Source of the DNA: a virus
Direction: 5' to 3' (one strand)
Virus record (IMG/VR): IMGVR_UViG_3300025162_000962
Coordinates: 1-29,638 of that record
Length of the DNA: 29,638 bases
Under the pieces are notes generated by a model. The model was not told where the DNA came from. It ran no database searches and saw only the letters and a program-made list of their open reading frames with translations. The translations under genes were made by a program, and so were the position numbers. The first letter of the stretch is position 1. Each line of letters begins with the position of its first letter. Shown in pieces: positions 5,609 to 27,835 of this stretch.

Positions 5609-5622
5609 TTTTTTATATATAA

Positions 5623-5769
5623 AAAAGATTTGATTGTTGTGAATATAAATATGCACTTCCTTTCGATTTTTATCTTCCTGATTATATTATCTCGAATGGT
5701 ATTAGGGTTAAATATAGCACGAAAATCTGGCAGTTAAGTTTATTACTTTTTATAAAATCCTATTCGTAA
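5623..5769 (+). pseudogene. Relic of a zinc-ribbon homing endonuclease
   Basis: The 208-base gap between two structural genes contains an open frame without a start codon. It reads KRFDCCEYKYALPFDFYLPDY from 5623, followed by unrelated residues to a TAA at 5767-5769. This matches the nuclease core of the three intact endonucleases here (KKYDNC..LPFDFYLPDYN, KKYDDC..LPFDFYLIDYN, KRFDDC..LPFDFYLSD). The catalytic EYDG.QHF that should follow is missing, and so is everything upstream. The tail KIWQLS weakly resembles the last residues of the copy at 1-948 (IKTWQTQL), so an internal deletion is possible. It is non-functional and marks a former homing insertion. Confidence 0.8.
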
Positions 5770-5790
5770 GTTTAGGATTTTTCTTTTTAC
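5754..5790 (+). terminator. Intrinsic terminator
   Basis: AAAATCCTA (5754-5762) pairs perfectly with TAGGATTTT (5773-5781) around a 10-nt loop and is followed by a T-rich run. It would end transcription of the 924-5608 block just before the GTATTTAT box of the next gene. Confidence 0.7.
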
Positions 5791-5791
5791 T

Positions 5792-5799
5792 GTATTTAT
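5792..5799 (+). promoter_or_regulatory. GTATTTAT box, putative phage late promoter 1
   Basis: GTATTTAT lies 17 nt before the GTG start of the 1449-residue baseplate gene and directly after a terminator hairpin. The same box with the same 17 nt spacing precedes 11685 and 14545. Confidence 0.6.
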
Positions 5800-5816
5800 G
5801 TTAAAATATAAAGTTC

Positions 5817-10195: not shown

Positions 10196-11635
10196 ATGTC
10201 AGCACCTTGGATAATAACACCATTAAAAACTGGAGCAATTCCTGCAAACAACTATACTTGCACAATTTCGGGTTTGTTGCCTGCTACTGTATATGAATAT
10301 CGTGCATATATGCTTGTTGATGGTGTGCCATATTACGGTGAAATATGCCAAATAACGACATTACCAATTCCAACGCAATCTCCAATATTAACAACTGGAA
10401 TTGCATACGACATTACAAATATTAGTATGGGAATTTGTAATAATGTTGTTAACTATAATGGTAATTTGCCAATTACTGAATATGGTGTATTATATACACA
10501 ATTGGGTGCTTATGGTAATGAATCACAATTAACAATTGATAAATACCCATCGCTTGTTTGTAAACAATCAATATCTGCTGATATTGCTATTGGTGTTAAT
10601 TATTTTACTGGCAGCGGAAATTTATTAACAAGTCTCTCTTGTAATACTGAGACCTTTTATAGAGCATTTGCTATAAATGCGCATGGTGTTGGATATGGTA
10701 ATATTAAATCGCAAATAGTTATTCCGTCTACAAGCACTAGCACGTCTACAAGCACATCTACAAGTACTTCCACTAGCACAAGTACTTCCACTAGCACATC
10801 TACAAGTAGCACGTCTACAAGCACATCTACAAGTACTTCCACTAGCACAAGTACTTCCACTAGCACATCTACAAGTAGCACGTCTACTAGTACATCTACA
10901 AGCACTAGCACATCTACAAGTACTTCCACTAGCACGTCTACAAGCACATCTACAAGTACTTCCACTAGCACAAGTACTTCCACTAGCACTAGCACGTCTA
11001 CTAGTACATCTACAAGTACTTCCACTAGCACAAGTACTTCCACTAGCACTAGCACGTCTACTAGTACATCTACAAGCACATCTACAAGCACTAGCACATC
11101 TACAAGTACTTCCACTAGCACATCTACAAGTACTTCCACTAGCACTAGCACATCTACAAGTACTTCCACTAGCACTAGCACGTCTACTAGTACATCTACA
11201 AGCACATCTACAAGCACTAGCACATCTACAAGTACTTCCACTAGCACTAGCACATCTACAAGCACGTCTACTAGTACAACAACTAGCACCACTACGTCAT
11301 CTCCAATATATGTAAATGTTACTAATGGAACAACGTCACCATTTACTTCAACAATATTGAGTGTTGCAGTGAATGGATATAATATAGTGGGAGGTTCATT
11401 TCCATTAACAATGGGAAATTCTACAAATGGGACTACTGATCAGATTGGTACTTATGATTTAACTGTTGTAGTTTTCTCGACATATAGTGGAAATGGTGCT
11501 ATTATTGTATCTGACTCAAATGGTACTCCATATTGTGTTGAAGTGAGTGGAAATACAACAATAACATTCCCGAATATTGTTGTAAGTAATAGCGGTAATA
11601 TTGATGTTGCAATTAGTAATGGAAATTGTGTTTAA
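10196..11635 (+). CDS. Tail protein with FN3-like domains and long Thr-Ser linker
   Basis: A protein of 479 residues. Residues 1-175 contain FN3-like segments (LLPATVYEYRAYMLVDG, ITEYGVLYT, ETFYRAFAINAHGVGYG). The TEYGV and YRA.A.N..G.GYG signatures match FN3 domains common in Bacteroidetes surface proteins. The first segment continues the style of the C-terminus of the preceding 1449-residue protein. Residues about 178-369 are the longest Thr-Ser repeat in the window. Residues 370-479 form a compact beta domain of unknown family, ending DVAISNGNCV. It is probably a peripheral fibre or spike. Start at ATG 10196 in an A-rich leader; no GTATTTAT box, so it is probably cotranscribed with the gene before it. 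Confidence 0.65.
   Translation: MSAPWIITPLKTGAIPANNYTCTISGLLPATVYEYRAYMLVDGVPYYGEICQITTLPIPTQSPILTTGIAYDITNISMGICNNVVNYNGNLPITEYGVLYTQLGAYGNESQLTIDKYPSLVCKQSISADIAIGVNYFTGSGNLLTSLSCNTETFYRAFAINAHGVGYGNIKSQIVIPSTSTSTSTSTSTSTSTSTSTSTSTSTSSTSTSTSTSTSTSTSTSTSTSTSSTSTSTSTSTSTSTSTSTSTSTSTSTSTSTSTSTSTSTSTSTSTSTSTSTSTSTSTSTSTSTSTSTSTSTSTSTSTSTSTSTSTSTSTSTSTSTSTSTSTSTSTSTSTSTSTSTSTSTSTSTSTSTSTSTSTSTTTSTTTSSPIYVNVTNGTTSPFTSTILSVAVNGYNIVGGSFPLTMGNSTNGTTDQIGTYDLTVVVFSTYSGNGAIIVSDSNGTPYCVEVSGNTTITFPNIVVSNSGNIDVAISNGNCV
10727..11302 (+). repeat. Thr-Ser codon repeat tract 2
   Basis: About 190 codons of alternating Ser and Thr, built from recombining units such as acatctacaagtacttccac and actagcacgtctactagtac. 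Two Ser-Ser doublets (acaagtagcacgtct) break the alternation. Part of the tract (10778-10848) is identical to 15889-15959 in another tail gene. Confidence 0.95.
10778..10848 (+). repeat. 71-bp exact repeat, copy 1
   Basis: Read base by base, these 71 bases match 15889-15959 exactly, including the acaagtagcacg interruption that gives a Ser-Ser doublet. Sequence on either side diverges. Confidence 0.9.
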
Positions 11636-11684: not shown

Positions 11685-14498
11685 ATGTCGTTTATTGATA
11701 AAAAAGACCCTGTTGTTTTAAGCATAATGTTAACATCAAAAGGTAGGGAACTATTATCTACTGGAAACCTAACATTCAAATATTTCGCTGTTGGTGATAG
11801 TGAAATTGATTATGGGTTGACCAATGAAATAAATAACATTGAATCTCATTTAAATTATAAACCATATCCGCTTGATTTGAGTATTTTAAGACCCACAAAT
11901 AAAAATCCTCAAATAATTTCTTTCGTTCCACAGAACATAACAGGTAATCCGTATAATTTAATATCAAGAGTACCATCAACACCATATGAAATTGTTAACA
12001 AAACCTCAACAATAGGGTTTTTTACTAATACTGGGACAACATTTATAACGGATAGTAATCACGTTAAACAACCCGATGCAATGGTTGACGTGAATGGAGT
12101 TACTGGTGGAACAAAACTCACGTTAAAAAAAGCACCAACATACGGTGCAAATATTAACGAACCTTCGATTGGGGATTTACTTTTAGTTAAATGGTCTGTT
12201 TATTCGAATACAACAGGATATACAATAAATAAAAATATTCCAACACCATATTTAACGTATCAAATTGTTAATAAGACAGGTACGTTGAGTTCCGATAATC
12301 TTATTGTAAGTGTTGATAGAAATTTGCCTGATTTCAATGGGTATTACCCAACCGCTAAAGCAGGTGCAATGATTTATTATAATTTTATTAATTATAGTGG
12401 TGCAACATTATTTGAAAATACTACGGCTGATTATAAGATTAAAAGCGTTTCATCGTTTTTGAATAATACTGAGTGTCCCACTGTTGTATTCCCATATTGG
12501 AATATGTCAATCATATATACAGAAGAAATTGCGGGGGTTAAATTTGTTGATAGAAATTTTGGACAATTTAATAGTAGGGCATATGGTGGATTTGTTTCAT
12601 ATATACAAAATCAAGCACCTATTTATAAAAAATTAGGTGTGATACATTATACGAATAATTCTCCAGCAAATGTGTATGCAGAAGAATTATATTTAAAAAC
12701 CGCCAAATTAGAAATTCCAAACATATTGTGGCACAAATCGAGTACAATTACAATGGGCATTACACTTGTGCCAACGGGTGATAGTAAATTATTAACTGGT
12801 GAAACAAAATCATTGAATTTAAAATATTACGATTTAGCAGATTTAGATGGTAATATTGTTGGAAAAGTGCTCACAGAATTAAAAATATTCTTGATTGAAG
12901 ACCAAGAATTGTTGTTTGCAATGTCATATAAGTCAAATAGGTCTTGGACTCTTCCAGATTATCTTGTTGGTAGTATTGGTGGGGCTGGTGCAGCACCAAC
13001 ATCTACCAGTACATCAACGTCTACAAGTACGTCTACCAGTACCAGTACATCTACCAGTACCAGTACATCTACTAGTACTTCTACATCTACTACAACAGTA
13101 CAACCAATATATTATAATGTTCAAATGTCTCAAGCATTTCAGAAGAATGATTGTCCCGCAGGACCGTCCTATGGTAATTATGTTACATATACGGTGATTG
13201 CAGCAAAATATAGTTCTTTAATATCTCAGGCAGCAGCAAATGCGTTGGCACAAGCAGAAATTGACGCAAATGGTCAAACTAATGCAAATATTAATGGTGT
13301 TTGTGAAGTAGTTCCACCGACAACCACTACCAGTACATCTACAAGTACCAGTACAAGTACATCTACAAGTACCAGTACATCTACAAGTACAAGTACGTCT
13401 ACAAGTACATCTACAAGTACAAGTACATCTACAAGCACGTCTACAACAATATCACCAAACCCAATGCTGATCACTAATCCATCTTTTGATCAATCATATA
13501 CTACTGCGGGTGTGGGTGGTAATGTGTTAACTTTGGGCGGTGGTGGAAGTACAATTGATGCAATTGGAGTTGTTTATGTTACTGCTACACAATATGATAA
13601 TGGCCGTGGAATGCCACCTGAAGCTGGCACTCAAGTATTCGGCATTGGTGGTGGACTAGGTGTATTCACATTAACATTATCTAATTTAATTAATGGTACT
13701 GATTATGTTTATAAAGCATTTGCTATAAATAATTTAAATCAAACGGGTTATGCTGGCAATGTTGAAACATTTACCACATTAATATTACCCACAACTACTA
13801 CCACTACAAATGCACCAATACCACCACCTGTAGGAATACCCGGGGTTGCAACCACATCACCCAACTTAAGTAATATTACTATGTCGAGTGCAATTCTTGG
13901 CGGATATGTATATAGTGAAGGTGGGTCAGCGATTACCGAAATGGGTATTTGTTATTCCATTATTAATACTAGTCCACCCGAAGCAGGGTCATATGTACTA
14001 GATGGCAATATTGGAATTGGTCAATTTATGGTAAATTTAAATGGATTGTCACCTAATACGACATATGTTTTCAAAGCCTATGCACGTAATATTTTTGGTG
14101 GTGCATATGGTCAAGAATATACATTTACCACCAACTCTACAACACCCACCACAACAACAATTCCACCGATTAATATTTCTCGTTATACAATTGGTATTTC
14201 TCCAATTGCTCCACTGGGAAGTGTTATACATAGTGTTAAAATAAATGGAATGGAACTACTTTCTGGAGATATTGGTACTTATGAAGGTACTATTGGTGGT
14301 GATGCAACTCCTTTTTTACATGACCCAACGATAGAGGTGTTATCAACAAATATTATTCATACTGAAATGAATGTTGCTTCTGATGGAGGGGTTAATCTAG
14401 CACATCCAACATATGTGGATGGAAATGGAGTAACGCATTCGGGTTTTCATGTAACTAATTTTTCTAATTATCTGATTATCTCAATAGTTAATGGTTAA
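11685..14498 (+). CDS. Long tail fibre-like protein with DUF5977-like and two FN3 domains
   Basis: A protein of 937 residues. Residues 1 to about 430 are closely related to the N-terminus of the next gene: both begin with a K.. variant of MLTSKGRE.LSTGNLTFKY and end with RSWTLPDY. This shared part is probably the virion-attachment base. Then follow Thr-Ser linker 1 (about 439-470), a 75-residue module with QAFQKNDC, YSSLISQAAANALA and GQTNANINGVC motifs (DUF5977-like, by memory), and Thr-Ser linker 2 (about 545-588). Two FN3-like domains come next (second with AITEMGICYS, PNTTYVFKAYARNIFGGAYG), then a C-terminal beta domain ending SNYLIISIVNG. Modular architecture and position suggest a host-recognition fibre. 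Promoter box and start spacing match 5817 and 14545. Confidence 0.7.
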   Translation: MSFIDKKDPVVLSIMLTSKGRELLSTGNLTFKYFAVGDSEIDYGLTNEINNIESHLNYKPYPLDLSILRPTNKNPQIISFVPQNITGNPYNLISRVPSTPYEIVNKTSTIGFFTNTGTTFITDSNHVKQPDAMVDVNGVTGGTKLTLKKAPTYGANINEPSIGDLLLVKWSVYSNTTGYTINKNIPTPYLTYQIVNKTGTLSSDNLIVSVDRNLPDFNGYYPTAKAGAMIYYNFINYSGATLFENTTADYKIKSVSSFLNNTECPTVVFPYWNMSIIYTEEIAGVKFVDRNFGQFNSRAYGGFVSYIQNQAPIYKKLGVIHYTNNSPANVYAEELYLKTAKLEIPNILWHKSSTITMGITLVPTGDSKLLTGETKSLNLKYYDLADLDGNIVGKVLTELKIFLIEDQELLFAMSYKSNRSWTLPDYLVGSIGGAGAAPTSTSTSTSTSTSTSTSTSTSTSTSTSTSTSTTTVQPIYYNVQMSQAFQKNDCPAGPSYGNYVTYTVIAAKYSSLISQAAANALAQAEIDANGQTNANINGVCEVVPPTTTTSTSTSTSTSTSTSTSTSTSTSTSTSTSTSTSTSTSTSTTISPNPMLITNPSFDQSYTTAGVGGNVLTLGGGGSTIDAIGVVYVTATQYDNGRGMPPEAGTQVFGIGGGLGVFTLTLSNLINGTDYVYKAFAINNLNQTGYAGNVETFTTLILPTTTTTTNAPIPPPVGIPGVATTSPNLSNITMSSAILGGYVYSEGGSAITEMGICYSIINTSPPEAGSYVLDGNIGIGQFMVNLNGLSPNTTYVFKAYARNIFGGAYGQEYTFTTNSTTPTTTTIPPINISRYTIGISPIAPLGSVIHSVKINGMELLSGDIGTYEGTIGGDATPFLHDPTIEVLSTNIIHTEMNVASDGGVNLAHPTYVDGNGVTHSGFHVTNFSNYLIISIVNG
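12999..13098 (+). repeat. Thr-Ser codon repeat tract 3a
   Basis: A run of about 33 codons joining the shared N-terminal base to the DUF5977-like module. It is built mainly from agtacatctacc-type units, using acc for Thr, and differs from tracts 1 and 2. Confidence 0.9.
13319..13449 (+). repeat. Thr-Ser codon repeat tract 3b
   Basis: A second run of about 43 codons in the same gene, between the DUF5977-like module and the FN3 domains, dominated by acatctacaagtac units. Having both tracts flank one module makes that module look like an exchangeable cassette. Confidence 0.9.
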
Positions 14499-14544: not shown

Positions 14545-16719
14545 GTGGCATTTATTAATAAAAAAGATTCTCTTGTTTTAAACATAATGTTAACATCAAA
14601 AGGTAGGGAACAATTGTCTACTGGAAATTTAACGTTCAAATATTTTGCTGTTGGTGATAGTGAAATTGATTATAATTTCATAAGAGACGTTAATTTTCCA
14701 ACAGGCGAGGCAAATTATAATGTTGCCGATTCAAGCATTTTACAACCAACTGATAAGTACCCTAAAATAATTTCTTTTATTCCGAACATAATATCTGGCG
14801 ATCCATATAATATAATATCAACAATTTCTTCAAAGTCATACGATGTTATGGATAAAGTAGAACCTCTTGGATTTTTTTCAAATGATGTGACGAAATTTAT
14901 TGTTGATGCGGATCATGTTAAACAACCAGATGCAATGGTTTATGTGAATAGTGTTGCGGGGGGGAGATTTTTAAATTTAAAAAAAGCACCTACATATGGT
15001 ACAAGTGGTCAAGAACCAGTAATTGGTGATTTACTTTTGGTTAAATGGGTGCATTATGGAAGTAGCACAGGGTATACAATAAATAAAAACATCCCCACAC
15101 CATATTTAACATATCAAATTGTTAATAAAACTGGTACATTAGGTAATAATAATTTAATCGTAACTGTTGATAGAAATTTACCTGATTTTAGTGGAAATCC
15201 GTTATATAATGGTATTGCAGGTGCAATGATTTATTATAATTTCACTAATTATATTGGTGATACTATATATAATGATTTAGAAACTGATTATATTAATGAA
15301 AGCATATTATTATTCACCCAAAATAATGAATGCCCAGTTCCTTCGTTTCCATTTTGGAATTTGTCAATTGTAAATACTGAGGAAATTGCGGGAGTTCAAT
15401 ATGTCGACAGAAAATTTACACAATCCCCAAGTAGAACATATGGTGGATTTGTTTCATATATTCAACAACAAGCACCCGTTTACAGTAAACTAGGTATTAT
15501 TCATTATAGTAACGAAGCCCCTACAAATACATATGGTGAAGAATTTTATTTAAATTCTAAATTAGAAATACCTTGGATTATGTGGCATAAATCAAATACC
15601 ACAACAATGGGCATTACACTTATGCCAATAGGTGACAGTAAAACATTAACAGGGAAAACAAAATCACTTAATACTGTATATTATGATTTGGCTGATTTAG
15701 ATGGTAATGTTGTGGGTAAAGTATTTACGGAATTGAAAATATTTTTAATTGAAGACCAAGAACTGTTATTTGCAATGTCATACAAGTCAAATAGGTCTTG
15801 GACGCTTCCAGATTATATTGTTAATGGCATCGTACCTACAACAACCACAAGTACAAGCACATCTACAAGTACATCTACAAGCACATCTACAAGTACTTCC
15901 ACTAGCACATCTACAAGTAGCACGTCTACAAGCACATCTACAAGTACTTCCACTAGCACTAGCACATCTACCACTACCAGTACATCTACCAGTACATCTA
16001 CAAGTACATCAACGAGTACAAGTACGTCTACCAGTACAAGCACAAGTACATCAACAACCACAATTCCACCAATTGTAAATAGTTATGGATATTTATATAA
16101 CTGGTATGCCACCACAAATATAAAAAAAATTGCAAATGAAGGATGGACAATTCCAGATTCCACTCAATTTGAAACATTAATGAAATATGTTGATCCTTTG
16201 GGGCATGCCCTTTCTAATACGGCAGCAAATGCACTAAAAGAAATTGGAACAACATATTGGACAGATGCACATGGAACAAATGCAACTGGATTTAATGCAC
16301 GTGGAGGTGGAATAAGAGATTATTCAACAGGCTTAGTTAGTAATATAAAATATAGTGCAACATATTGGACAAGTTTTATTTTAGATGATAGTATACATAA
16401 AGGCGTTGCTGGATTATGGACAAACTTACCGCAATTTGCAGTACCGATTTCTGGCGATGGTTTTCCAAGATACAATCCACATGAAGGTGTTTCGGTTAGA
16501 TTAATTAAAAATACAACAACATTAACAAATGGTCAATCAGGTACGTATGTTGGAAATGATGGAACTATTTATAATACAATTTGTATTGGAACTCAGGAAT
16601 GGATGTCTGAAAATTTAAAGGAAACTAGATATAATGACGGTACACTTATTCCAGAAATATTAAACAATATTGAATGGATTAATGATTCAATTGGTGCTAG
16701 ATGTTATTATATTTTATAA
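14545..16719 (+). CDS. Long tail fibre-like protein, paralogue of the preceding gene, with FISUMP tip
   Basis: A protein of 724 residues from a GTG start aligned with the ATG of the paralogue at 11685. Residues 1 to about 430 repeat that paralogue's base (KGREQLSTGNLTFKYFAVGD, NIPTPYLTYQIVNKTGTL, TKSLN..YYDLADLDGN). A Thr-Ser linker (about 432-506) leads to a FISUMP domain (about 510-724) with YGYLYNWYATTN, EGWTIPDSTQFE, ALKEIGTTYW, GVSVRLIK, then GTYVGNDGTIYNTICIGTQE, WMSENLKETRYNDGTLIP and GARCYYIL. The latter motifs normally precede YG.LYNWYA, so the domain appears circularly permuted, as in 2781-4214. It is probably an alternative or accessory adhesin carried on the same attachment base. 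Confidence 0.7.
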   Translation: MAFINKKDSLVLNIMLTSKGREQLSTGNLTFKYFAVGDSEIDYNFIRDVNFPTGEANYNVADSSILQPTDKYPKIISFIPNIISGDPYNIISTISSKSYDVMDKVEPLGFFSNDVTKFIVDADHVKQPDAMVYVNSVAGGRFLNLKKAPTYGTSGQEPVIGDLLLVKWVHYGSSTGYTINKNIPTPYLTYQIVNKTGTLGNNNLIVTVDRNLPDFSGNPLYNGIAGAMIYYNFTNYIGDTIYNDLETDYINESILLFTQNNECPVPSFPFWNLSIVNTEEIAGVQYVDRKFTQSPSRTYGGFVSYIQQQAPVYSKLGIIHYSNEAPTNTYGEEFYLNSKLEIPWIMWHKSNTTTMGITLMPIGDSKTLTGKTKSLNTVYYDLADLDGNVVGKVFTELKIFLIEDQELLFAMSYKSNRSWTLPDYIVNGIVPTTTTSTSTSTSTSTSTSTSTSTSTSTSSTSTSTSTSTSTSTSTSTTTSTSTSTSTSTSTSTSTSTSTSTSTSTTTIPPIVNSYGYLYNWYATTNIKKIANEGWTIPDSTQFETLMKYVDPLGHALSNTAANALKEIGTTYWTDAHGTNATGFNARGGGIRDYSTGLVSNIKYSATYWTSFILDDSIHKGVAGLWTNLPQFAVPISGDGFPRYNPHEGVSVRLIKNTTTLTNGQSGTYVGNDGTIYNTICIGTQEWMSENLKETRYNDGTLIPEILNNIEWINDSIGARCYYIL
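15838..16063 (+). repeat. Thr-Ser codon repeat tract 4
   Basis: About 75 codons linking the shared base to the FISUMP tip. The first half uses the same units as tract 2 (including the 71-bp exact copy), and the second half uses tract-3-like accagtacatct units. It reads as a mosaic of two repeat families. Confidence 0.95.
15889..15959 (+). repeat. 71-bp exact repeat, copy 2
   Basis: Identical to 10778-10848 in the tail gene 10196-11635, including its Ser-Ser interruption. The flanks differ. Confidence 0.9.
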
Positions 16720-16780: not shown

Positions 16781-16814
16781 TTATAGTAAACAATAAAAAT
16801 TTATAAATACTTAT
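16773..16814 (+). promoter_or_regulatory. 13-bp inverted repeat spanning promoter box and start codon
   Basis: ATAAGTATTTATA (16773-16785) and TATAAATACTTAT (16802-16814) are exact reverse complements separated by 16 nt. The left arm contains the GTATTTAT box and the right arm ends on the first two bases of the ATG at 16813. In RNA it could hide the start codon; in DNA it puts the box in both orientations. Confidence 0.75.
16777..16784 (+). promoter_or_regulatory. GTATTTAT box, putative phage late promoter 4
   Basis: It lies 28 nt before the first glycosyltransferase gene, the longest spacing of the six boxes, and inside a 13-bp inverted repeat. It would drive the sugar cassette. Confidence 0.55.
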
Positions 16815-17835
16815 GAGACAATTAAGATATATTTGTGCACAGCCAGCTATTAAATATTATGCTTGGCAGGTAGAAGTAATGATAAACAATTTCATTGAGA
16901 TGGGTATTAATGCTAATAACATTGATATTATTGCGTGGAAGGAGAATGGTATAATACCTGAAGAATGGAGTAAGCTTGCAAATAGATATGCAGCAAGATT
17001 CTTTTTTTATGATGACACCAGAGAAATCAAACACTACGTTTCATCAATCAGACCTAATATTTTAAAACAACATTTTAAAGCGCATTCTTACTTAAAGAAT
17101 GATGTAATATTTTATCATGATTGTGATATTGTATTTACTAAACCGCCAAGAGAGTGGATTAGTGATGATATGTTGAATGATGAAGAGTGGTATGGTTCTG
17201 ATACTCGTTGGTATATTGCTCATTCATATATTAAGAGTAAAGGTGATGATATTATTCAGAAAATGTGCAATATTATGCAAATGGATGAGAAAGTAATTGA
17301 AGACAATGAATTAAATTGTATAGGTGCACAATATCTAATGAAAAATGTCGATTATTCTTATTGGGATAGGGTTGAAAAAGATTCGGAGAAATTATTTAAA
17401 GACGTTACAAATTTAAATAACAAAAAAATTTATTTAGATAAAATCAAATGGGAAGAAGAAAAAATTGAATGGGAGAAAAATAATGTGGAAGCAATTGCCA
17501 ATGGTGAAAAATTCTCCAAGCCACTATATCACGAGTTACAAATATGGTGCGCAGATATGTGGGCAGTCCTATGGGGTGCATGGAGATTGGGTTATAAAAC
17601 TAATATTCATCCTAATTATGAATTTAGCTGGGCAACATCAAGTGAAAATGATTATGATAGAATGAATATTATGCATAATGCTGGTATTGAATCAGCAGAT
17701 AATGGTCAATTTTATAAAGCTGCATATATGAATAGTTTTCCATATAATTTAGATTTAAAAATAAACGAATATACCACTAGTAAGAAATATTATGAGTGGG
17801 TTCAAAAGGTAGAAAAAATAACTTGTTTAATCTAA
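16813..17835 (+). CDS. Putative glycosyltransferase with DxD motif
   Basis: A protein of 340 residues. The N-terminus MRQLRYICAQPAIKYYAWQV and the following alternating strands and helices fit a GT-A nucleotide-binding fold. The FYHDCDIVFTKPP segment (DCD, residues 103-105) is a typical metal- and UDP-sugar-binding DxD. A Trp-rich C-terminal segment (WCADMWAVLWGAWRLGYKT) could line the acceptor site. A charged helical insertion lies around residues 205-235. There is no membrane segment, so it is cytoplasmic. It is the first gene of a run of three glycosyltransferases and a methyltransferase placed among tail genes, which suggests modification of virion proteins or of a host glycan. I cannot name the family; fold and class are inferred from motifs. 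Confidence 0.65.
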   Translation: MRQLRYICAQPAIKYYAWQVEVMINNFIEMGINANNIDIIAWKENGIIPEEWSKLANRYAARFFFYDDTREIKHYVSSIRPNILKQHFKAHSYLKNDVIFYHDCDIVFTKPPREWISDDMLNDEEWYGSDTRWYIAHSYIKSKGDDIIQKMCNIMQMDEKVIEDNELNCIGAQYLMKNVDYSYWDRVEKDSEKLFKDVTNLNNKKIYLDKIKWEEEKIEWEKNNVEAIANGEKFSKPLYHELQIWCADMWAVLWGAWRLGYKTNIHPNYEFSWATSSENDYDRMNIMHNAGIESADNGQFYKAAYMNSFPYNLDLKINEYTTSKKYYEWVQKVEKITCLI

Positions 17836-17853
17836 ATAAAAAAATTAATTATT

Positions 17854-18618
17854 ATGAATAAAAAAAATGTTGGAATTGTAATATTAGCAACTAATGCTTA
17901 TTTTGTACTTGGCGTAAATTTGATGAAGAAATTCATATATCATTATAAAGGCGATGCAAAAATTACTTTTTATTTTTTCTCGGATACAAACCCTAATGAA
18001 TATGTTCCAGATAATTTAGATGTTAAATATACACACCAAGTACATGATAATTGGTTGGATGGTACGAATTCTAAGTTTACAAATATATTGTCATTAGAAA
18101 ATTCGGATGCTGATTATTTAATATATATAGATGCAGACACCAGTATATCAAAGGATTTTACCGAAGAATGGTTTATTGGTGATACGGTAGGATTGGAACA
18201 TTTCGGTAACAATGGTTGGATGAAAGACGTTAAAGGTTATGATAGAAATATAAACTCAAAAGCATATGTGCCAATGGATACTCCATTATTTCAAATGTAC
18301 TATCATGGGTGCTTGTTTGGTGGAGAGAAAAATAGGCTTATGGAAGTATGTAAAATTTTGCATAATAATCAGTTGGAAGATAAAAAAATATCTTATGAAC
18401 CCGGGGTAAATGATGAAAGTTACATTAATCAATATTATCACTATAATCCCCCTACTCTTACAGTATATTTAGATAAATATATGTTTAATGTTAGTGATAA
18501 GGGAGGAATTGGGGATACTAGAGATATGAAATTAAATATAGGGTCACTAAAAGCAGAAATGTTAATTAATAAAAACAATAATTACGATATTATAAACAAC
18601 CGTATAGTAGTAAAATGA
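17854..18618 (+). CDS. GT6-family glycosyltransferase
   Basis: A protein of 254 residues, the usual size for bacterial GT6 enzymes, which lack the mammalian membrane anchor. It starts MNKKNVGIVILATNAYFVLG. DAD (residues 93-95) in LIYIDADTSI is the metal-binding site. YYHGCLFGGEKN and NDESYINQYYHYNPPTLTVY match the GT6 FFGG and DES.LN.Y...PT..L regions of the ABO blood-group transferase family. These are retaining alpha-Gal/GalNAc transferases. Many bacterial GT6 proteins have NxN in place of DxD, so the intact DAD is worth noting. It sits 18 nt after the previous transferase and overlaps the next by ATGA, so the three are probably cotranslated. Confidence 0.8.
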   Translation: MNKKNVGIVILATNAYFVLGVNLMKKFIYHYKGDAKITFYFFSDTNPNEYVPDNLDVKYTHQVHDNWLDGTNSKFTNILSLENSDADYLIYIDADTSISKDFTEEWFIGDTVGLEHFGNNGWMKDVKGYDRNINSKAYVPMDTPLFQMYYHGCLFGGEKNRLMEVCKILHNNQLEDKKISYEPGVNDESYINQYYHYNPPTLTVYLDKYMFNVSDKGGIGDTRDMKLNIGSLKAEMLINKNNNYDIINNRIVVK

Positions 18619-19934
18619 TTTCCTCATTTAAAACGATTGATAATAACACAAGTATAGAATATAAAAACATATATTCTATATTTGGCGTGTTATATTTTTT
18701 CACTATTGAAGAAATTAATTTACCTTATGTTAAAAAATTTACAACGTCTTATGACTGGAGACCACAAATCAAAAAATTTAATTCTGAAGAAGAGCTAAAT
18801 AATTACATAGAAACCCTTCAAGACATAAAAATTGTTGACTTAGCAGTATTGGCGGATAATTTGTGGTATGGAAATATTGGGCACGGATTATTTGACGGAT
18901 TATACCCAATATATCTATCATTATTAAAATTTGGATATGTTGACGAACCTTTTACGTTTTTATCTATGGATTGGTCGTTTAGGGAAAATTTTGCGTATGA
19001 TACGATTAAAGCTTTCACAAAACAGGAATTGTTAGAATATACTAATTTAGATAAAAGTGAAATATTTCACTTCAAAACGTTGATTGCTGGAACAGATCCA
19101 ACGGGAAATAGGGTTGTAAATAAAGAAATGTTTATATATGGTAAACATTGGGATGGTTTAGCACAGTTTAAAAGAAGACTTTTTGAAGTACATGGTATTA
19201 ACATTGACAAACCATTAAATCGTGTGCCCAATGTAATCATAATTAATAATAAGAGATTTAATGAACAAGATGTAATAATTCTTAAAGAGGTTGTTAATAA
19301 GGTATCTGATATTTGTAACATAAAATTTATTGATTGGTATCATGATTATAAAATTTATGGAAACAAAGCATTTATTAAACAAATGGAAGACTTTCAAGAG
19401 GTAGATATTCAGATTACTGCACCGGGTACTGGAATGATGTATCTTCCACTTCTTAAACGAGGTGCTGTTAATATTAATCTTGGATTTATCGAACACACTC
19501 AAACCAATACAGTTAGAGGTAATCTTAAAATATTGGAATCAAAGCACCCAGATCATTTAATTCCTGCATATATGGAACAGCCCATATGTGCTGGGACATA
19601 TTATGTTACTAGTTTATATTATGATAGATATAAATACAATAATTTGGAGATCGAACCATTAATTGCCATAATTAATGAGGCAATTGAACTAATAAAAAAT
19701 GGTCAAATTATTGAGGGTAATGTTAATATAGATGCTAAAGTATTTAGGGAATATTGTAAAATAGCTAAAGACGCAAATGAAATTTGTGCACATCTAACAT
19801 ACGGATCGCTACACGTAGAATTTTTTGTGAACGAACATCCATACGCATTATTACCAACAACTGATATAGAATTACTTAGAAAAATTAAAGATGAGCTTGG
19901 TTATGATAGACAATACGAAATTCGTTTGGACTAG
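18615..19934 (+). CDS. GT61-like glycosyltransferase
   Basis: A protein of 439 residues with a start that overlaps the stop of the GT6 gene (ATGA). Residues about 80-110 (LADNLWYGNIGHGLFDGLYP) recall the N..H.L.D.L.P region of GT61/DUF563 proteins. FKRRLFEVHGI and VIIINNKR follow. The segment VDIQITAPGTGMMYLPLLKRG followed by AVNINLGF corresponds to the GT61 GA...N..F...G..vvE region. GT61 includes xylosyl-, arabinosyl- and O-GlcNAc-transferring enzymes (EOGT, POMGNT2). No membrane segment is seen. The 3' end overlaps the start of the methyltransferase frame by 44 nt. Family assignment is moderate; the sugar is unknown. Confidence 0.6.
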   Translation: MISSFKTIDNNTSIEYKNIYSIFGVLYFFTIEEINLPYVKKFTTSYDWRPQIKKFNSEEELNNYIETLQDIKIVDLAVLADNLWYGNIGHGLFDGLYPIYLSLLKFGYVDEPFTFLSMDWSFRENFAYDTIKAFTKQELLEYTNLDKSEIFHFKTLIAGTDPTGNRVVNKEMFIYGKHWDGLAQFKRRLFEVHGINIDKPLNRVPNVIIINNKRFNEQDVIILKEVVNKVSDICNIKFIDWYHDYKIYGNKAFIKQMEDFQEVDIQITAPGTGMMYLPLLKRGAVNINLGFIEHTQTNTVRGNLKILESKHPDHLIPAYMEQPICAGTYYVTSLYYDRYKYNNLEIEPLIAIINEAIELIKNGQIIEGNVNIDAKVFREYCKIAKDANEICAHLTYGSLHVEFFVNEHPYALLPTTDIELLRKIKDELGYDRQYEIRLD

Positions 19935-20553
19935 AGTCATTGGTGGAATTCCCCTTCAGTTTGAAGATGTGGCAACGTCTAATACAGTGCCATTTGTATT
20001 TGGAGAATTTGAGCAAGATTACTATTGATTAGAACAAATTCAATTATCCAAAGAAGATATTGTAATTGATGTGGGTGCTAATGTTGGAATGTTTTCCATT
20101 TATATTAAAAAGAAGTTTGGGTGTAAAGTAATTGCATTTGAGCCAGTTCCAATGAACTTCAAACAATTTAAGAAAAATATTATTCTAAATGGTTTGTCTT
20201 TAGATGATTTTGAATTACATAATACTGCTGTGACTGACGTTGAAGGAGAGATTGTTAGAATTGGTACTCCGTTGGATAATACTGGAGGTTCATCCACTTA
20301 TGATTTCAACACCAATTATTCAATGTGTAAAACTGAAACGTTAGAAAAATACATAACAAAAGATTGTAAATACTTGAAAATAGATTGCGAAGGCAGTGAA
20401 TATTCAATCATTCCTTCAATACTCCATAAGATTAACCAATTTAGTTATATTGGGATTGAATACCACAAATTCAATGAGGATCAAAATCCCAAAGTATTAC
20501 ATGAAACATTGAGAATGAATTTTAATGGAGAAATGTTTCATGCAGATATTTAA
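19891..20553 (+). pseudogene. FkbM-family methyltransferase interrupted by in-frame TGA
   Basis: From ATG 19891 (or 19903) the frame encodes 45 residues ending FGEFEQDYY, meets TGA at 20026-20028, then continues in the same frame with LEQIQLSKEDIVIDVGANVG to 20553. The downstream part has the Methyltransf_21 signatures: the SAM-binding DVGANVGMFSIY, VIAFEPVPMNF, an NTAVTD..GE segment and YLKIDCEGSEYSII. A downstream GTG (20071) would start inside the SAM motif and is an unlikely true start. FkbM enzymes O-methylate sugars, which fits the neighbouring transferases. The gene is either recently inactivated, read through at TGA, or carries a sequencing error. TGA is an ordinary stop for other genes here (for example 29545), so genome-wide recoding is unlikely. 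Confidence 0.75.
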
Positions 20554-21631: not shown

Positions 21632-22297
21632 ATGGAAAAATATATATGGTCGCTTGATATTAGTACTACAAATATCGGAAGTGCTTTATGGGATTCAAAA
21701 GGAAAGTTAATTGAATTGAAACATCTGGAATTAAAAATAGATAAAAATGTTCAAGTTGGAGATAGAGATATTCATAAAGCGGAAATCTTTAGGAAATATG
21801 TGGAAGAATATAAAAATAGAATATTAACTGAACTAAACGGTGAAATTGAATATATTATAGTTGAAGAACCTTTGAACGGTAGCAACAATTCCAACACAGT
21901 TTCATTGTTATATGGTTTTAATGGAATTTGTAGATATATTCTATACACAATATTCAATATTTATCCAAAGAAAATATCTGTGCATGAGTCACGTAAATTA
22001 TTTTTGGTCGATTTGGTTCACAACGAAAAAAGAAAGGGTGAAATGGTTGAAGTATTATCTTTTCCTAAAGAATATATAAAAGAAAAGAAATTATATATAT
22101 GGGAAAAAGTATCTAAACTAGAAAAACAAATTGAATGGTTTTATGGTAAAGACGGTAAACTAAAAGACATCAACTATGATATGTCCGATTCTTTTGTTGT
22201 TGGTATTGCTGGTTTAATTACTTTAGACATTATTACAAAAGAAGATTGGAAAAAAAGATATTTATCAATATGTCCCAAAAAACATCAATTGGAATAA
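21632..22297 (+). CDS. RuvC-like Holliday junction resolvase
   Basis: A protein of 221 residues with an RNase H-like fold. WSLDISTTNIGSALW supplies the first acidic residue (D9), EYIIVEEPL the glutamate (E78 or E79), and INYDMSDSFVVGIAGL the paired aspartates (D183, D186). This D-E-D-D order is that of RuvC and related phage or poxvirus resolvases. Resolvases debranch replicating phage DNA before packaging. Expression from a late-type box fits that role, as with the late T4 gp49 resolvase, which is unrelated in fold. Residues 130-175 are a charged helical insertion. The 3' end overlaps the following endonuclease gene by 28 nt. Confidence 0.75.
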   Translation: MEKYIWSLDISTTNIGSALWDSKGKLIELKHLELKIDKNVQVGDRDIHKAEIFRKYVEEYKNRILTELNGEIEYIIVEEPLNGSNNSNTVSLLYGFNGICRYILYTIFNIYPKKISVHESRKLFLVDLVHNEKRKGEMVEVLSFPKEYIKEKKLYIWEKVSKLEKQIEWFYGKDGKLKDINYDMSDSFVVGIAGLITLDIITKEDWKKRYLSICPKKHQLE

Positions 22298-23382
22298 TTA
22301 AAGAATATGTAAAATTACTTGGCTGTTCATTAATGTCAACTAGTTATAGAAATAACAAAGAGGCGTTGAAATGGAAATGTGATTGTGGTGAGGAATGGGA
22401 ATCTTCTTGGAGTAATTTAAAAACTAAAAATGCTTTGTGCCCAAAATGTCAAAATAGAAGAACATCAAAAAATCCGAATAAATACAATATTAATGATTTT
22501 AAAATTATTGCCAATAATAAAGGGGGTGTTTGCTTATCGGACATCTATACTCATTGTAAGGTCAAATTAAAATTTCGATGTAATTTTGGTCATATTTGGG
22601 AGGCTACACCTGCAAATATAATAAATAGTAAAACATGGTGTCCAGTTTGTGGGCGCACTAGCTCAACTACCATTAATGATATACAAAAACTTGCCCATAA
22701 AAAGAATGGCATGTGTTTGTCAACAAAATATGTAAACGGCAGCACAAAACTTTTGTGGGAATGCGAAAATGGTCACGAGTGGATGGCAGTTCCTGAAAGT
22801 ATCGTGGCTGGGACTTGGTGTCCAATATGTGCAAATAGAAACATACCATCAACAATATGCGAAATGCACGAAATTGCCCATGAACGAGACGGAGAGTGTG
22901 TTAGTGAAAAATATGTTAACGCTCATTCAAAATTGAAATGGAAATGTGAGAATGGTCACGAGTGGAATGCAACGCCATCGAACATAAAGAATGGGAAATG
23001 GTGTCCATTGTGCATATCTTCTGGCGGTGAAAAATTCTTAAGGAATTTATTTATAAAAAATGGGGTTAAATTCGAACCACAAAAAAAATATGATGACTGT
23101 AGAAACGTTAAACAACTACCTTTTGATTTTTATTTAATTGATTATAATATTTTAATTGAATATGACGGTCATCATCATTTTAAACCAATTCAATTTAATG
23201 GGTGTTCAATTGAAAAAGCAAATAAAACATTTTTAGGCACAATAAAAAACGATAAAATTAAAAATGAATATTGTATGAATAATAACATTCCTTTAATACG
23301 AATACCATACACAGAAAAGAATATCGGAGAATATTTAAAAAATAAATTGATTGATTATAACGCTCTTTTCATTATTAAATGA
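22270..23382 (+). CDS. Homing endonuclease with DUF4379-type zinc ribbons
   Basis: A protein of 370 residues from ATG 22270; an in-frame TTG at 22246 would extend it by 8 residues deeper into the resolvase gene. Four tandem units carry a GHeW-type core and C..C pairs (LKWKCDCGEEWES, FRCNFGHIWEA, WECENGHEWMAV, WKCENGHEWNAT, each closed by a CPxC pair). They resemble DUF4379 zinc-ribbon repeats. The C-terminus is the same nuclease core as the copies at 1-948 and 25227-26339: GGEKFLRNLF, LPFDFYLIDYNILIEYDG, HHHF and a ND.IKNEYC segment. It is inserted without an intron between the resolvase and a GIY-YIG gene, overlapping the first by 28 nt and the second by ATGA. Confidence 0.85.
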   Translation: MSQKTSIGIIKEYVKLLGCSLMSTSYRNNKEALKWKCDCGEEWESSWSNLKTKNALCPKCQNRRTSKNPNKYNINDFKIIANNKGGVCLSDIYTHCKVKLKFRCNFGHIWEATPANIINSKTWCPVCGRTSSTTINDIQKLAHKKNGMCLSTKYVNGSTKLLWECENGHEWMAVPESIVAGTWCPICANRNIPSTICEMHEIAHERDGECVSEKYVNAHSKLKWKCENGHEWNATPSNIKNGKWCPLCISSGGEKFLRNLFIKNGVKFEPQKKYDDCRNVKQLPFDFYLIDYNILIEYDGHHHFKPIQFNGCSIEKANKTFLGTIKNDKIKNEYCMNNNIPLIRIPYTEKNIGEYLKNKLIDYNALFIIK

Positions 23383-23687
23383 GATACATATATTTAATTA
23401 AATCTGTAGAGGATAGTTGTTATAAAATTGGGATATCTAAACACCCAAACAAACGTTTGTCACAATTGCAAACGGGAAATTCTGCAGAGTTAAAACTAAT
23501 TGATGTATATCCCACTGAGTTAGCCAATCAAATTGAAGGAACATTACATAGAAAATATTCTCACATACATAAAAACGGTGAGTGGTTCGATGGGTCAATA
23601 GAAATTGAGGTTTCGTTTATAAAAGAGTGTAAACGAATTGAAGAAACTTTAAAGATGTTAAAGCAAAGCGGTAATGTATTTATCTGA
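23379..23687 (+). CDS. T5orf172/GIY-YIG-type small nuclease
   Basis: A protein of 102 residues covering one whole domain. MRYIYLIKS supplies the first Tyr motif, YKIGISKHPNKRLSQLQTGN the second motif and catalytic-type Arg, and IEGTLHRKYSHIH with GEWF the E..LH and GEWF signatures of the T5orf172 (MUG113-like) branch of GIY-YIG proteins. The start overlaps the stop of the endonuclease upstream (ATGA), so the two are probably translationally coupled. It could be an independent homing nuclease or a partner of its neighbour. It has no separate DNA-binding domain. Confidence 0.75.
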   Translation: MRYIYLIKSVEDSCYKIGISKHPNKRLSQLQTGNSAELKLIDVYPTELANQIEGTLHRKYSHIHKNGEWFDGSIEIEVSFIKECKRIEETLKMLKQSGNVFI

Positions 23688-23763: not shown

Positions 23764-25230
23764 ATGAATAAAGAAAGAATCGAAAAAGCAGTTGAAGTAA
23801 TTAATTATGCAATGAAGAATCAAATATCAGTTAGAGAAGCATCGTTAAAATGTGGATATGCTGATACTTATGTAAAGAACACAAAAGCAATCCTTTATGA
23901 AAAATATGAAAATGGTATGCTTGATGATGAACTATTTACATTGTTTGATGATGCTTACAAGCAATATGCTTATTATAGGGGATTTGGAATAGTAAACGAT
24001 TACTCCCCCAAAACAGATTTATCCCAACTTAAAGTTCCGTCACAATGGAATATTACCAACACCGCTGCAGATAACGGTACTAAATTCAATCAAAAGGGTA
24101 ATGAAGCAACTGCTGAGTGGAAAAGCTCTAACTATCCCTTAAATCACATTAAAACGCTAAGTGAGCTACTTGCAGCATGTGAAGTAGATTTAGACATTTG
24201 GCAAGTAAAAGAACATACTGTTAATAAATGGGACACCACCAGTATGAAAGGTGATGCACCACAAACAATCCAAAATTTTCAAGTTAAAGCACGTTTAGAA
24301 AAAAATCTTGTTGCTTCTAAAGAAAAAGCAATTGGTGAGATTTTTATTGATATGGTGAAAAATTATATGCCATCACGCTTAGAAGTACCTATTAAACCAA
24401 AAACAACTGTTGAAAACAATCTATTTGAGATAACTCTTTTTGATCTTCACATGGGCAAGCTTTGCTGGAAAAACGAGACAGGTGAGAACTATGATCTTAA
24501 AATAGCAAGTAAACGATTCTTAACAACAATCAGAACATTAATTGATAGAGCAAAGGGATTTGAATACTCAAGAATTCTGTTTCCTATTGGTAGTGATTTT
24601 TTTAATACCGACACGATACTAAACACCACCACAGCAGGAACGCCACAGGATGAGGATGCCAGATGGAAAAAGACTTTCTCCTTGGGTATCAGGCTTGTAG
24701 TGGATGCAATTAATATGTTAAAACAAACAGGCGTTCCTGTTGATGTTATGGTAATTGCGGGTAATCATGATTTAGAAAGAAGTTATTATTTGGGTGCATG
24801 TCTTGAGGCGTGGTTTAACAATGATTCTCAAGTTCACATAAATAATGAAGCACCTTTAAGGAAATACTATCGTTTTGGTAAAGTATTGCTTGGATTAACT
24901 CATGGAAGTGAAGAGAAAGAAAGTTCATTATCAATGTTAATGGCAAATGATGTTGAATCTAAATCAATGTGGGGTGAAACATTATACCATGAATGGCACT
25001 TGGGGCACATCCATCGCAAAAGAACCGTTAAATACACTACGTTGGATGCAAGCAGAGTGACTAACGAAGAGTTGGGTGTTACTGTTAGATATTTATCAAG
25101 TTTAACTGGGACTGACGCATGGCACTTTTCTAAAGGGTTCATAGGTGCAACCAAAGCGGGTGAAGCATTCATTTGGAATGATGAAGCTGGACTTGTTGCG
25201 CATTTGAATGCAAATTTAATAATTGAATGA
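23764..25230 (+). CDS. Calcineurin-like metallophosphoesterase with N-terminal helix-turn-helix-like region
   Basis: A protein of 488 residues. The metal-binding motifs appear in order: FDLHMGK (D227, H229), IGSDFFNTD (around 276-280), AGNHDLERS (333-336), LTHG (H380) and LGHIH (414-417). This is the Mre11/SbcD/calcineurin superfamily. Residues about 10-45 (ISVREASLKCGYADTYVKNT) look like a helix-turn-helix. Proteins of this shape are common in large phages and are often annotated as phosphoesterase or exonuclease; a role in DNA processing during replication is plausible but not shown. It has its own host-type promoter, and its stop overlaps the next gene (ATGATGA). Confidence 0.8.
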   Translation: MNKERIEKAVEVINYAMKNQISVREASLKCGYADTYVKNTKAILYEKYENGMLDDELFTLFDDAYKQYAYYRGFGIVNDYSPKTDLSQLKVPSQWNITNTAADNGTKFNQKGNEATAEWKSSNYPLNHIKTLSELLAACEVDLDIWQVKEHTVNKWDTTSMKGDAPQTIQNFQVKARLEKNLVASKEKAIGEIFIDMVKNYMPSRLEVPIKPKTTVENNLFEITLFDLHMGKLCWKNETGENYDLKIASKRFLTTIRTLIDRAKGFEYSRILFPIGSDFFNTDTILNTTTAGTPQDEDARWKKTFSLGIRLVVDAINMLKQTGVPVDVMVIAGNHDLERSYYLGACLEAWFNNDSQVHINNEAPLRKYYRFGKVLLGLTHGSEEKESSLSMLMANDVESKSMWGETLYHEWHLGHIHRKRTVKYTTLDASRVTNEELGVTVRYLSSLTGTDAWHFSKGFIGATKAGEAFIWNDEAGLVAHLNANLIIE

Positions 25231-26339
25231 TGACCATTAAATCAAACACTAAGGATTTTATTTTAAAATCTACCATAGTACACAATAATAGGTATGATTA
25301 TTCTGAATCGGAATATATCACAAATTACATTAAATTAAAAATTAGATGTTTGATTCACGGTATTTTCATGCAATCACCTCATTCTCATTTAACTGGAAGA
25401 GGATGTCCAAGATGTTCAAATAAATATAAATTAACTACAGATGATTTTATAAGTAAAGCTAATTTGGTTCATTCGAATAAATATGATTATAGTGAAACTA
25501 TCTATAATAACAGTAAAGCAAGTCTCAATATAAAATGCCCAATTCATGGTATTTTTAGACAATTGGCAAATAATCATATTGTGGGATACGGCTGTCCACA
25601 GTGTGGTGGGAAAATTACGCTAACTAATGATGATTATATTAATAGGGCAGTAAAAACACATAATAACATATATGATTACGCTGAAACCATATATGTTAAT
25701 TCGAAAACCAAAGTTAAGGTAAAATGTGATATACACGGTATTTTTACACAAATGCCATTTAATCACTTAAATGGTGGTGGATGTCCAAAATGTGCTGGTA
25801 GAAATAAAACAACGGAAGAATTTGTTATTGAGGCAAATAGTATACATGAAAATATTTATGATTACACATTGTCAAAATATTTGGGAAATAAAATAAAATT
25901 AGACATAATTTGTCCGATACATGGAATTTTTTTCCAAATACCACACAGTCATTTGGTTGGTTCTGGTTGCCCAAAATGTAATAAATCAAAAGGAGAAATA
26001 ACAATTGGAAAAATATTAAACAAGCATAATATTAAATTTATTGAACAAAAAAGATTTGATGATTGTTTGGGAAATAAAAATAAACTTCCTTTTGATTTTT
26101 ATTTAAGTGATGATAATTGTGTTATTGAGTATGATGGACGACAACATTTTGAAGTCGTTAGATTTAACGGATGTTCAGAAGAAGTAGCAAAACAATGTTA
26201 TGAATCTACAATAAAAAACGATAAAATTAAAACGCAATATTGTGTAGATAATAAAATAAAATTAATTAGAATTCCATTTTATGTAAAAGATATTGAAAAC
26301 TATATAATAAATAAAATAAATGATAAATATTATGAATAA
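25227..26339 (+). CDS. Zinc-ribbon homing endonuclease (DUF723-type repeats)
   Basis: A protein of 370 residues. Four tandem units each have a YDYSE/T-type segment, C.IHGIF, an N/SHL.G.GCP.C closing pair and about 58-60 residues in all. The C-terminal nuclease core has KGEITIGKIL, KRFDDC, LPFDFYLSDDN, IEYDGRQHF and NDKIKTQYC. Architecture matches the partial copy at 1-948. The start overlaps the metallophosphoesterase stop and the end overlaps the next gene, so insertion left the neighbours intact. Zinc-ribbon arrays presumably read the target site and the EDxHD-type core cuts. Confidence 0.85.
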   Translation: MMTIKSNTKDFILKSTIVHNNRYDYSESEYITNYIKLKIRCLIHGIFMQSPHSHLTGRGCPRCSNKYKLTTDDFISKANLVHSNKYDYSETIYNNSKASLNIKCPIHGIFRQLANNHIVGYGCPQCGGKITLTNDDYINRAVKTHNNIYDYAETIYVNSKTKVKVKCDIHGIFTQMPFNHLNGGGCPKCAGRNKTTEEFVIEANSIHENIYDYTLSKYLGNKIKLDIICPIHGIFFQIPHSHLVGSGCPKCNKSKGEITIGKILNKHNIKFIEQKRFDDCLGNKNKLPFDFYLSDDNCVIEYDGRQHFEVVRFNGCSEEVAKQCYESTIKNDKIKTQYCVDNKIKLIRIPFYVKDIENYIINKINDKYYE

Positions 26340-26941: not shown

Positions 26942-27835
26942 ATGGGTAGGCAAAAGCAAACTATTGGGAGATGTGCCAAAGAAGCTTTAAAATACCAAAC
27001 AAGAAGCGATTTTAGACAAAATAGCTATTATATTTACAACATGGCATGTAGTTTTCATTGGTTGGATGAAATATGTACTCACATGATAAGAACAGGAAGC
27101 ATCATGTACAGATGTGTATATGTTTATGAATTTCCTGATAATTATGCTTATGTTGGTTTAACAAATAATATAACCAAAAGAAATTCTAAACGGAAATCAA
27201 AACTCAATGATGCTGTAACTAAATATATTAAAGAAACTAATTTAGAACCTAATCTAAAACAATTATGTGATTATGTCCATATTGATGTAGCAAGAGAATT
27301 GGAAAAAGATTTAATTAAAATATATAAATCAATGGGATGGAACATGTTAAATATTACAGATGGTGGAGAAGTTGGAGCAATTGAAAGAAAGTGGACTAAA
27401 GAAGAATGTCATAAAGAAGCATTAAGTTTTAAAACAAAAACAAAATTTAAAGAAAAGAAATGCAGTGCCTACATGTGCGCAAAAAGAAATAATTGGCTTG
27501 ATGATATTTGCATGCACATGATTCAAATAAACACTCATCGAACATCAGAAGATTGTAGGTTAATTGCATTAAAATATAAAACAAAGGTTGAATTTGAAAA
27601 ATACGATAAAGCTTCTTATGCATGGGCAAAAAGAAATGAAATTTTAGAAGAATTGTGCGCACACATGTCAAGAAAATATAAACCTCAAGGGTATTGGACT
27701 AAAGAACGTTGCCAAGAAAAAGCATTGGAATTTGATTCAAGATATAAATTTACTATAGGTGCTAGTGGTGCACATGATGCTGCAAATAGAAATGGTTGGA
27801 TTGATGAAATTTGCGTACATATGAAACGAAAATAA
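26942..27835 (+). CDS. GIY-YIG homing endonuclease flanked by WLDEIC-HM repeats
   Basis: A protein of 297 residues. The nuclease domain (about 56-142) has YRCVYVYEF and YAYVGLTNN as the two Tyr motifs, a basic KRNSKRKSK stretch, a Glu in ARELEKDLI and a WNMLNITDGG closing segment. Around it is a repeat of about 45 residues, with one copy before the domain (EALKYQTRSDF...HWLDEICTHM) and three after it (NWLDDICMHM, EILEELCAHM, GWIDEICVHM). These units look like small helical DNA-binding modules. The gene lies after a strong terminator and just before the primase promoter, as expected of a free-standing homing endonuclease in a gap. Nuclease call is firm; the repeat's role is inferred. Confidence 0.8.
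   Translation: MGRQKQTIGRCAKEALKYQTRSDFRQNSYYIYNMACSFHWLDEICTHMIRTGSIMYRCVYVYEFPDNYAYVGLTNNITKRNSKRKSKLNDAVTKYIKETNLEPNLKQLCDYVHIDVARELEKDLIKIYKSMGWNMLNITDGGEVGAIERKWTKEECHKEALSFKTKTKFKEKKCSAYMCAKRNNWLDDICMHMIQINTHRTSEDCRLIALKYKTKVEFEKYDKASYAWAKRNEILEELCAHMSRKYKPQGYWTKERCQEKALEFDSRYKFTIGASGAHDAANRNGWIDEICVHMKRK

Follow-up and report, generated by a model that had tools for sequence, protein, structure and literature searches.

Apparent circular permutation of a FISUMP domain at the ends of two phage tail proteins

Order of FISUMP parts in two tail genes

The window, by which we mean the whole 29,638-nucleotide stretch of viral DNA analyzed here (IMG/VR record IMGVR_UViG_3300025162_000962), contains a tail-fibre-like open frame of 724 aa at 14545–16719 (plus strand, like its parts, the wedge gene, the paralogue and the second permuted gene described below). 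It lies downstream of, and in the same direction as, a baseplate wedge subunit gene (924–2771; phrog_219, E 4.4e-15) that marks the tail context. The protein begins with an attachment module (aa 1–429; 14545–15831), which is 67% identical over 432 columns to that of a neighboring paralogue (11685–14498) with other tips (DUF5977 and repeats), and which occurs with different tips in other viral contigs. A Thr/Ser repeat linker, read directly from the translation, follows at 15838–16062. The protein ends in two parts of a FISUMP (Fib_succ_major) domain: a body running from YGYLYNWYA to VSVRLIK (16084–16509; half-model E 1e-35, with matches to PF09603 and TIGR02145) and, at the C terminus, a head running from GNDGTIYNTICIGTQEWM to GARCYY (16546–16710; half-model E 2e-27). 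The gap between the half-model matches (16510–16545) corresponds to a new 12-residue loop from body to head, and other permuted domains have loops of the same length class. The motifs quoted in an earlier note on this DNA, including the terminal GARCYYIL, are present as cited; its statement that the protein starts at YGYLYNWYA has to be corrected, because about 512 residues (the attachment module and the linker) come before that motif.

A second gene (2781–4214), absent from the earlier note, also has a Thr/Ser linker followed by a terminal FISUMP domain in permuted order. Its body (3633–4019; half-model E 4e-35) and head (4044–4205; half-model E 8e-28) are joined by a loop of 8 residues.

Both PF09603 and TIGR02145 exceeded their curated cut-offs in the gene at 14545–16719, each in two stretches, and when the isolated domain region was tested against TIGR02145/PF09603 it scored 79.0 bits against a cut-off of 33.9 and 74.9 bits against a cut-off of 41.65. 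In a six-frame search of the window, PF09603 profile positions 22–187 matched at 16000–16509 and positions 3–70 matched from 16585 downstream; the start of the profile lies downstream of its end, which indicates that the order is reversed. The half-models, which we made from 31 aligned body sequences and 30 aligned head sequences, gave E-values that exclude chance. The profile matches and the half-models, body then head, place the domain at 16084–16710 and confirm the earlier note's report of FISUMP parts out of canonical order. The canonical order, head then body, is found in neither window gene.

In the canonical relative L155, GARCAY is followed by nine residues and then by YGYLYNWYA, whereas the permuted domain of 14545–16719 has YGYLYNWYA as its first residues and GARCYYIL as its last, so the cut lies in the CYY/YG hairpin. 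Compared with the canonical domain, the order is reversed, the old ends are fused by the new loop, the new ends lie in the hairpin, and roughly the first quarter of the canonical domain now stands at its end. The canonical CYY/YG junction had already been proposed as the break point, a proposal supported by the sequence and by two independent structure models. An assembly error is unlikely, because an identical domain (100% identity) occurs on two further contigs (L006 and L007) and because a relative, L301, whose module is 83% identical, likewise ends in body and then head. What the sequences themselves show is the order of the parts, where the cut falls, that the module is shared and that the tip diverges. 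On this evidence the window domains, in which head and body resemble those of FISUMP above both curated cut-offs, are circularly permuted relatives of FISUMP and not plain members of the family.

Long Thr/Ser repeat linkers are present in four tail genes (2781–4214, 10196–11635, 11685–14498 and 14545–16719). Extended minus-strand reading frames facing these linkers (2960–3607, 10657–11292 and 15813–16061) were ruled out as genes; their VLVDVLVD repeat is the mirror of the Thr/Ser linker repeat. Close downstream (16813–20553) are genes for a family 6 glycosyltransferase (PF03414, phrog_3317) and for an FkbM methyltransferase, and the Thr/Ser linkers may be glycosylated by the phage.

Predicted fold of the permuted domain

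AlphaFold2, run on a single chain with 64 permuted rows as input, modeled the window domain as one compact domain (pLDDT 93.4, pTM 0.90), with pLDDT values of 96–98 in the head except for its last residues. The canonical relative L155, modeled separately from 63 canonical rows, gave a pLDDT of 97.6 and a pTM of 0.92. By the earlier note's account, a C-terminal piece forming its own domain would speak against its reading; in the model that piece is part of the single domain. The window domain and L155 are 43% identical (73/169) in a common register, and their secondary-structure states are equal at 140 of the 169 aligned residues (50 of 56 in the head). When the head string was slid ungapped along the canonical one, the best placement was canonical position 1 (41/58; next best 33, median 22). 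An ungapped comparison of secondary structure over the whole domain was uninformative: it numerically favored the unrotated order (0.72 versus 0.60 for the rotated order) because indels in the body dominate it.

A sequence search found no relative among solved structures. A Foldseek search of the PDB with the permuted model found nothing significant, which is expected because the search is order dependent. With VIA-align, the canonical model aligned over residues 1–200 with the C-type-lectin folds of PvdO (Z 9.2), Lcl (7.9) and Bd2740 (7.5), and from residue 13 with InvE (Z 8.5). Alignment was full length with PvdO (3.7 Å, 159 residues aligned) and with the DGR variable proteins TaqVP (Z 6.8, 3.0 Å, 138) and Mtd (Z 6.8, 4.0 Å, 129). 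Matches of the permuted model were weak (Bd2740, Z 5.3; a mannose receptor domain, 4.0; a venom lectin, 3.8) and covered only residues ~9–156, starting 16–20 residues later in the same entries; even the best PDB match was weak (Z 5.3, rmsd 3.0, 83 residues aligned, within residues 11–156). In BFVD, the permuted model matched two proteins over 217 and 247 columns (TM 0.83 and 0.86) and a third over 142 columns (TM 0.50), whereas the canonical model matched that third protein best (179 columns, TM 0.85) and the first two over only 155 and 141 columns. This reciprocal pattern, together with the Foldseek and VIA-align results, is the behavior expected of a circular permutation, and the prediction for the rotated chain is one domain with the same fold as canonical FISUMP.

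Bdellovibrio Bd2740 (PDB 8oks) is a C-type-lectin tip that ends a chimeric fibre, as we propose for the window domain. Since it aligns to residues 1–200 of the canonical model, it is not permuted in the way of the window domain, and what links it to that domain is a structural match. According to the available text of its description, Bd2740 is a trimer and does not bind calcium (PMC10769870). Trimeric C-type-lectin tips, of which Bd2740 and Mtd are examples in the same text (PMC10769870), bear on another way of reading the permuted model. The head, being C-terminal and joined by a loop, could be donated as a strand to complete a neighboring subunit's body in a trimeric fibre, with permutation serving assembly by domain swapping; a prediction made on a single chain from permuted relatives accommodates such an arrangement. 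The joining loop is short (7–24 residues), however, and the monomer was modeled with high confidence, and we consider donor-strand assembly improbable.

Distribution and origin of the permuted order

A viral scan with the permuted alignment, which ranks by likeness to the permuted query, gave 79 loci, at which 84 of 85 ORFs begin with body then head and one has a head only. With a canonical query we found 80 loci and 97 ORFs, 63 of them in canonical phase, 26 with body-head first (of which 4 are body-head-body and ambiguous) and 8 with one half only. An order-neutral sample was drawn with a DNA pattern for YGxLYNWYA, which gave at least 80 loci and at least 86 sites in viral records. Among the matches listed (86 sites), 49 were canonical and 21 permuted, 12 were a body alone, 2 had a head on both sides and 2 were of other kinds; permuted sites therefore made up 21 of the 70 with one clear partner among those listed.

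Bacterial genome contigs, scanned with the permuted query and hence with a bias toward permuted matches, gave 80 loci and 115 ORFs, of which 106 were canonical, 3 were permuted and 6 had a body only. The ratios 21:49 (viral, among the matches listed) and 3:106 (genomes) differed in a Fisher test (p 2e-7), the two samples having been drawn differently. In a sample of one phylum, the pattern occurred in 55 of 296 genomes, and 29 of the 30 loci read there had the canonical order; the one permuted locus is the place of L140, whose genome centered the sample. The permuted gene of L140 adjoins a portal gene (phrog_11226, 1.5e-68) and so lies in an evident prophage. Near L216 there is an integrase match, weak and under the cut-off. 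All three genomes with permuted ORFs (L139, L140 and L216) also hold canonical copies. Among phage isolate records, three permuted queries matched only OP947161 over most of the query, and a canonical query matched Microcystis phage Mel-JY01, in canonical order. The earlier note had held that its reading would be refuted if the body-head order were the norm in family members. In phages that is partly so, as the 21 of 70 sites among the matches listed indicate, and in bacterial genomes it is not (3/115 ORFs; 1/30 loci). Judged from these sequence samples, the permuted FISUMP domain is a recurring phage variant and not a singular oddity.

Tandem arrays are common (19 of 426 distinct ORFs are body-head-body-head and 24 of 426 are head-body-head-body), so that the window domain might be read as what is left of such an array, in which the end of one FISUMP copy precedes an incomplete second one and the whole has no fold of its own. 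Four observations argue against such a remnant, which we regard as very improbable. The head is conserved, with a mean entropy of 1.49 compared with 3.24 in the most variable part of the body (residues 110–147) and 1.32 in the last strand. The same cut is found in many viral contigs. Stand-alone permuted ORFs with one body and one head exist (OP947161, 210 aa; L064, 214 aa; L028, 220 aa). Finally, the whole chain was modeled as one domain. In several fused permuted arrays (L008, L009, L018, L019, L029, L083 and L132), a second body without YGYLYNWYA follows close after the first head, and the pairing of heads with bodies is ambiguous.

Body-head gaps inside canonical arrays are 6–16 residues long in 6 of 24 cases, with sequences like those of permuted domains (L141, L272). 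Canonical tandems that are this tight and have the same body-head linker indicate an origin by duplication and trimming: the probable source would be tandem canonical copies from which the first head and the last body were lost. For tree building, 205 rows were reduced to 181 by length and to 146 by 62% clustering, and canonical rows were reduced from 79 to 51 at random, leaving 118. To account for the order, the tree of 118 rows takes 6 changes, at least 2 of which are imposed by branches with good support; the tree of 205 rows also takes 6, at least 1 of them imposed. None of 200 bootstrap trees of the 118 rows (0%) had a single change, and an AU test on these rows did not reject one clade (p 0.175). 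The trees of these sequences thus favor more than one origin, and the AU test leaves one origin possible.

Survey text available for 224 jumbo phages mentions C-type-lectin FGS domains and does not mention a permuted lectin (PMC7824862). No description of a permuted FISUMP domain was found in the literature searched, a scope outside which most subscription papers and preprints fall. A warning also follows: a domain of this kind shows up in profile searches as two broken matches. Most known circular permutations are single curiosities or products of engineering; in phages this lectin-like domain seems often, and naturally, to be in the permuted state, which is rare in bacterial genomes. Plausible intermediates, the tight tandems, persist, and the case as a whole makes it possible to study why permutation re-hangs a binding domain.

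Probably exchangeable tips and putative receptor binding

The attachment module carries different tips. L301 and the window gene at 14545–16719, whose modules are 83% identical, have tips that are only 39% identical, and the L301 tip is closer to the second window tip (45%) than to the first. The module occurs with unrelated tails in contigs L302 and L304–L307 (L303 ends at the contig end). A modular tip on a shared attachment module, a criterion for the receptor-binding tip of a phage protein, is what we find here. The highly variable residues 110–147 correspond roughly to the stretch between strands 3 and 5, which the available text on a CLec variable protein gives as its putative ligand site (PMC6328139). 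The FISUMP tip is most likely an exchangeable receptor-binding tip and is a candidate for that role.

An alternative is that the permuted domain is a structural or decorating tail module, or in some phages a surface lipoprotein. Two ORFs with permuted domains (L037, 3860–4621; L139, 3836–5248) start with an apparent lipoprotein signal peptide, some permuted domains sit within long proteins, and TIGR02145 in Fibrobacter was suggested, in the text available, as a possible cohesin analogue (PMC4704652). Of 76 distinct single permuted domains, 32 end more than 20 residues from the ORF end, which shows that they need not be terminal. The window domain, by contrast, closes a protein whose module is shared and whose tip is divergent, and its most variable segment corresponds to the CLec binding site noted above (PMC6328139, available text); a structural or lipoprotein role is in our judgment unlikely for it.

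We consider it quite probable that the two tail proteins carry permuted FISUMP tips that have a single fold, bind receptors and arose from tandems. In this view the hairpin that separates the CYY strand from YGYLYNWYA is where the chain was opened, and a loop of ~12 residues (8 in the second gene) connects what used to be the last strand with what used to be the first. The domain would hang from the attachment module and the flexible Thr/Ser linker, with its attachment point moved to the former hairpin and the conserved head put at the extreme C terminus, and the variable binding segment would stay in the body. We infer this effect on orientation, as we do the route of origin: the tip appears to be a receptor-binding, C-type-lectin-like domain hung from a new attachment point, and it is plausible that, as the earlier note had suggested, permutation places the putative binding loops differently.

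According to the available text of PMC6328139, in DGR variable proteins of the CLec type the two terminal strands pair with each other, and the variable region is placed at the extreme C terminus. The window domain differs from Mtd and TaqVP in that its end strands are fused and the chain is opened elsewhere. FISUMP and the related DUF1566 domains are known DGR targets, with one example at a protein end, in the available text of PMC4159848 and PMC8143477. No RVT_1 was found in the contig of L007, which has the identical domain; that record and the window may both be fragments. Of 49 viral records with permuted domains 1 had RVT_1, as did 4 of 50 that mostly bear canonical ones; these counts are too small to weigh, and the records may be fragments. 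The sole RT beside a permuted gene (L064/L313) is accompanied by a TR/VR pair of 128 nt, with 92 identical positions, 32 mismatches at TR A and 4 other mismatches, that sits at the end of another ORF, outside the permuted gene. A DGR-like pair in L314 (8950–9126 and 9633–9809; 177 nt, with 145 identical positions, 26 mismatches at TR A and 6 other mismatches) has its variable copy in a gene for a canonical FISUMP domain, at the 3' end. It is possible, though we put it forward tentatively, that phages opened the FISUMP C-type-lectin domain repeatedly at the same hairpin from tandem arrays, and that the permuted form was selected because it hangs a putative receptor-binding tip from another corner with the variable segment internal, away from the gene 3' end where DGRs diversify canonical copies.

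Elsewhere in the window, three genes with DUF723 or DUF4379 repeats (46–948, 22246–23382 and 25227–26339) have a C-terminal LPFDFYL motif in common, and a DNA fragment encoding this motif lies at 5646–5689, inside the gap 5609–5816. These genes look like mobile endonuclease genes, and the fragment looks like a remnant of one. Of two further genes, at 23379–23687 and 26942–27835, the first is of the GIY-YIG/T5orf172 kind and the other has a weak GIY-YIG match that does not reach the cut-off. A sigma-70/ECF-like factor gene (28880–29545; PF04542, PF04545) overlaps the end of a primase-like gene.
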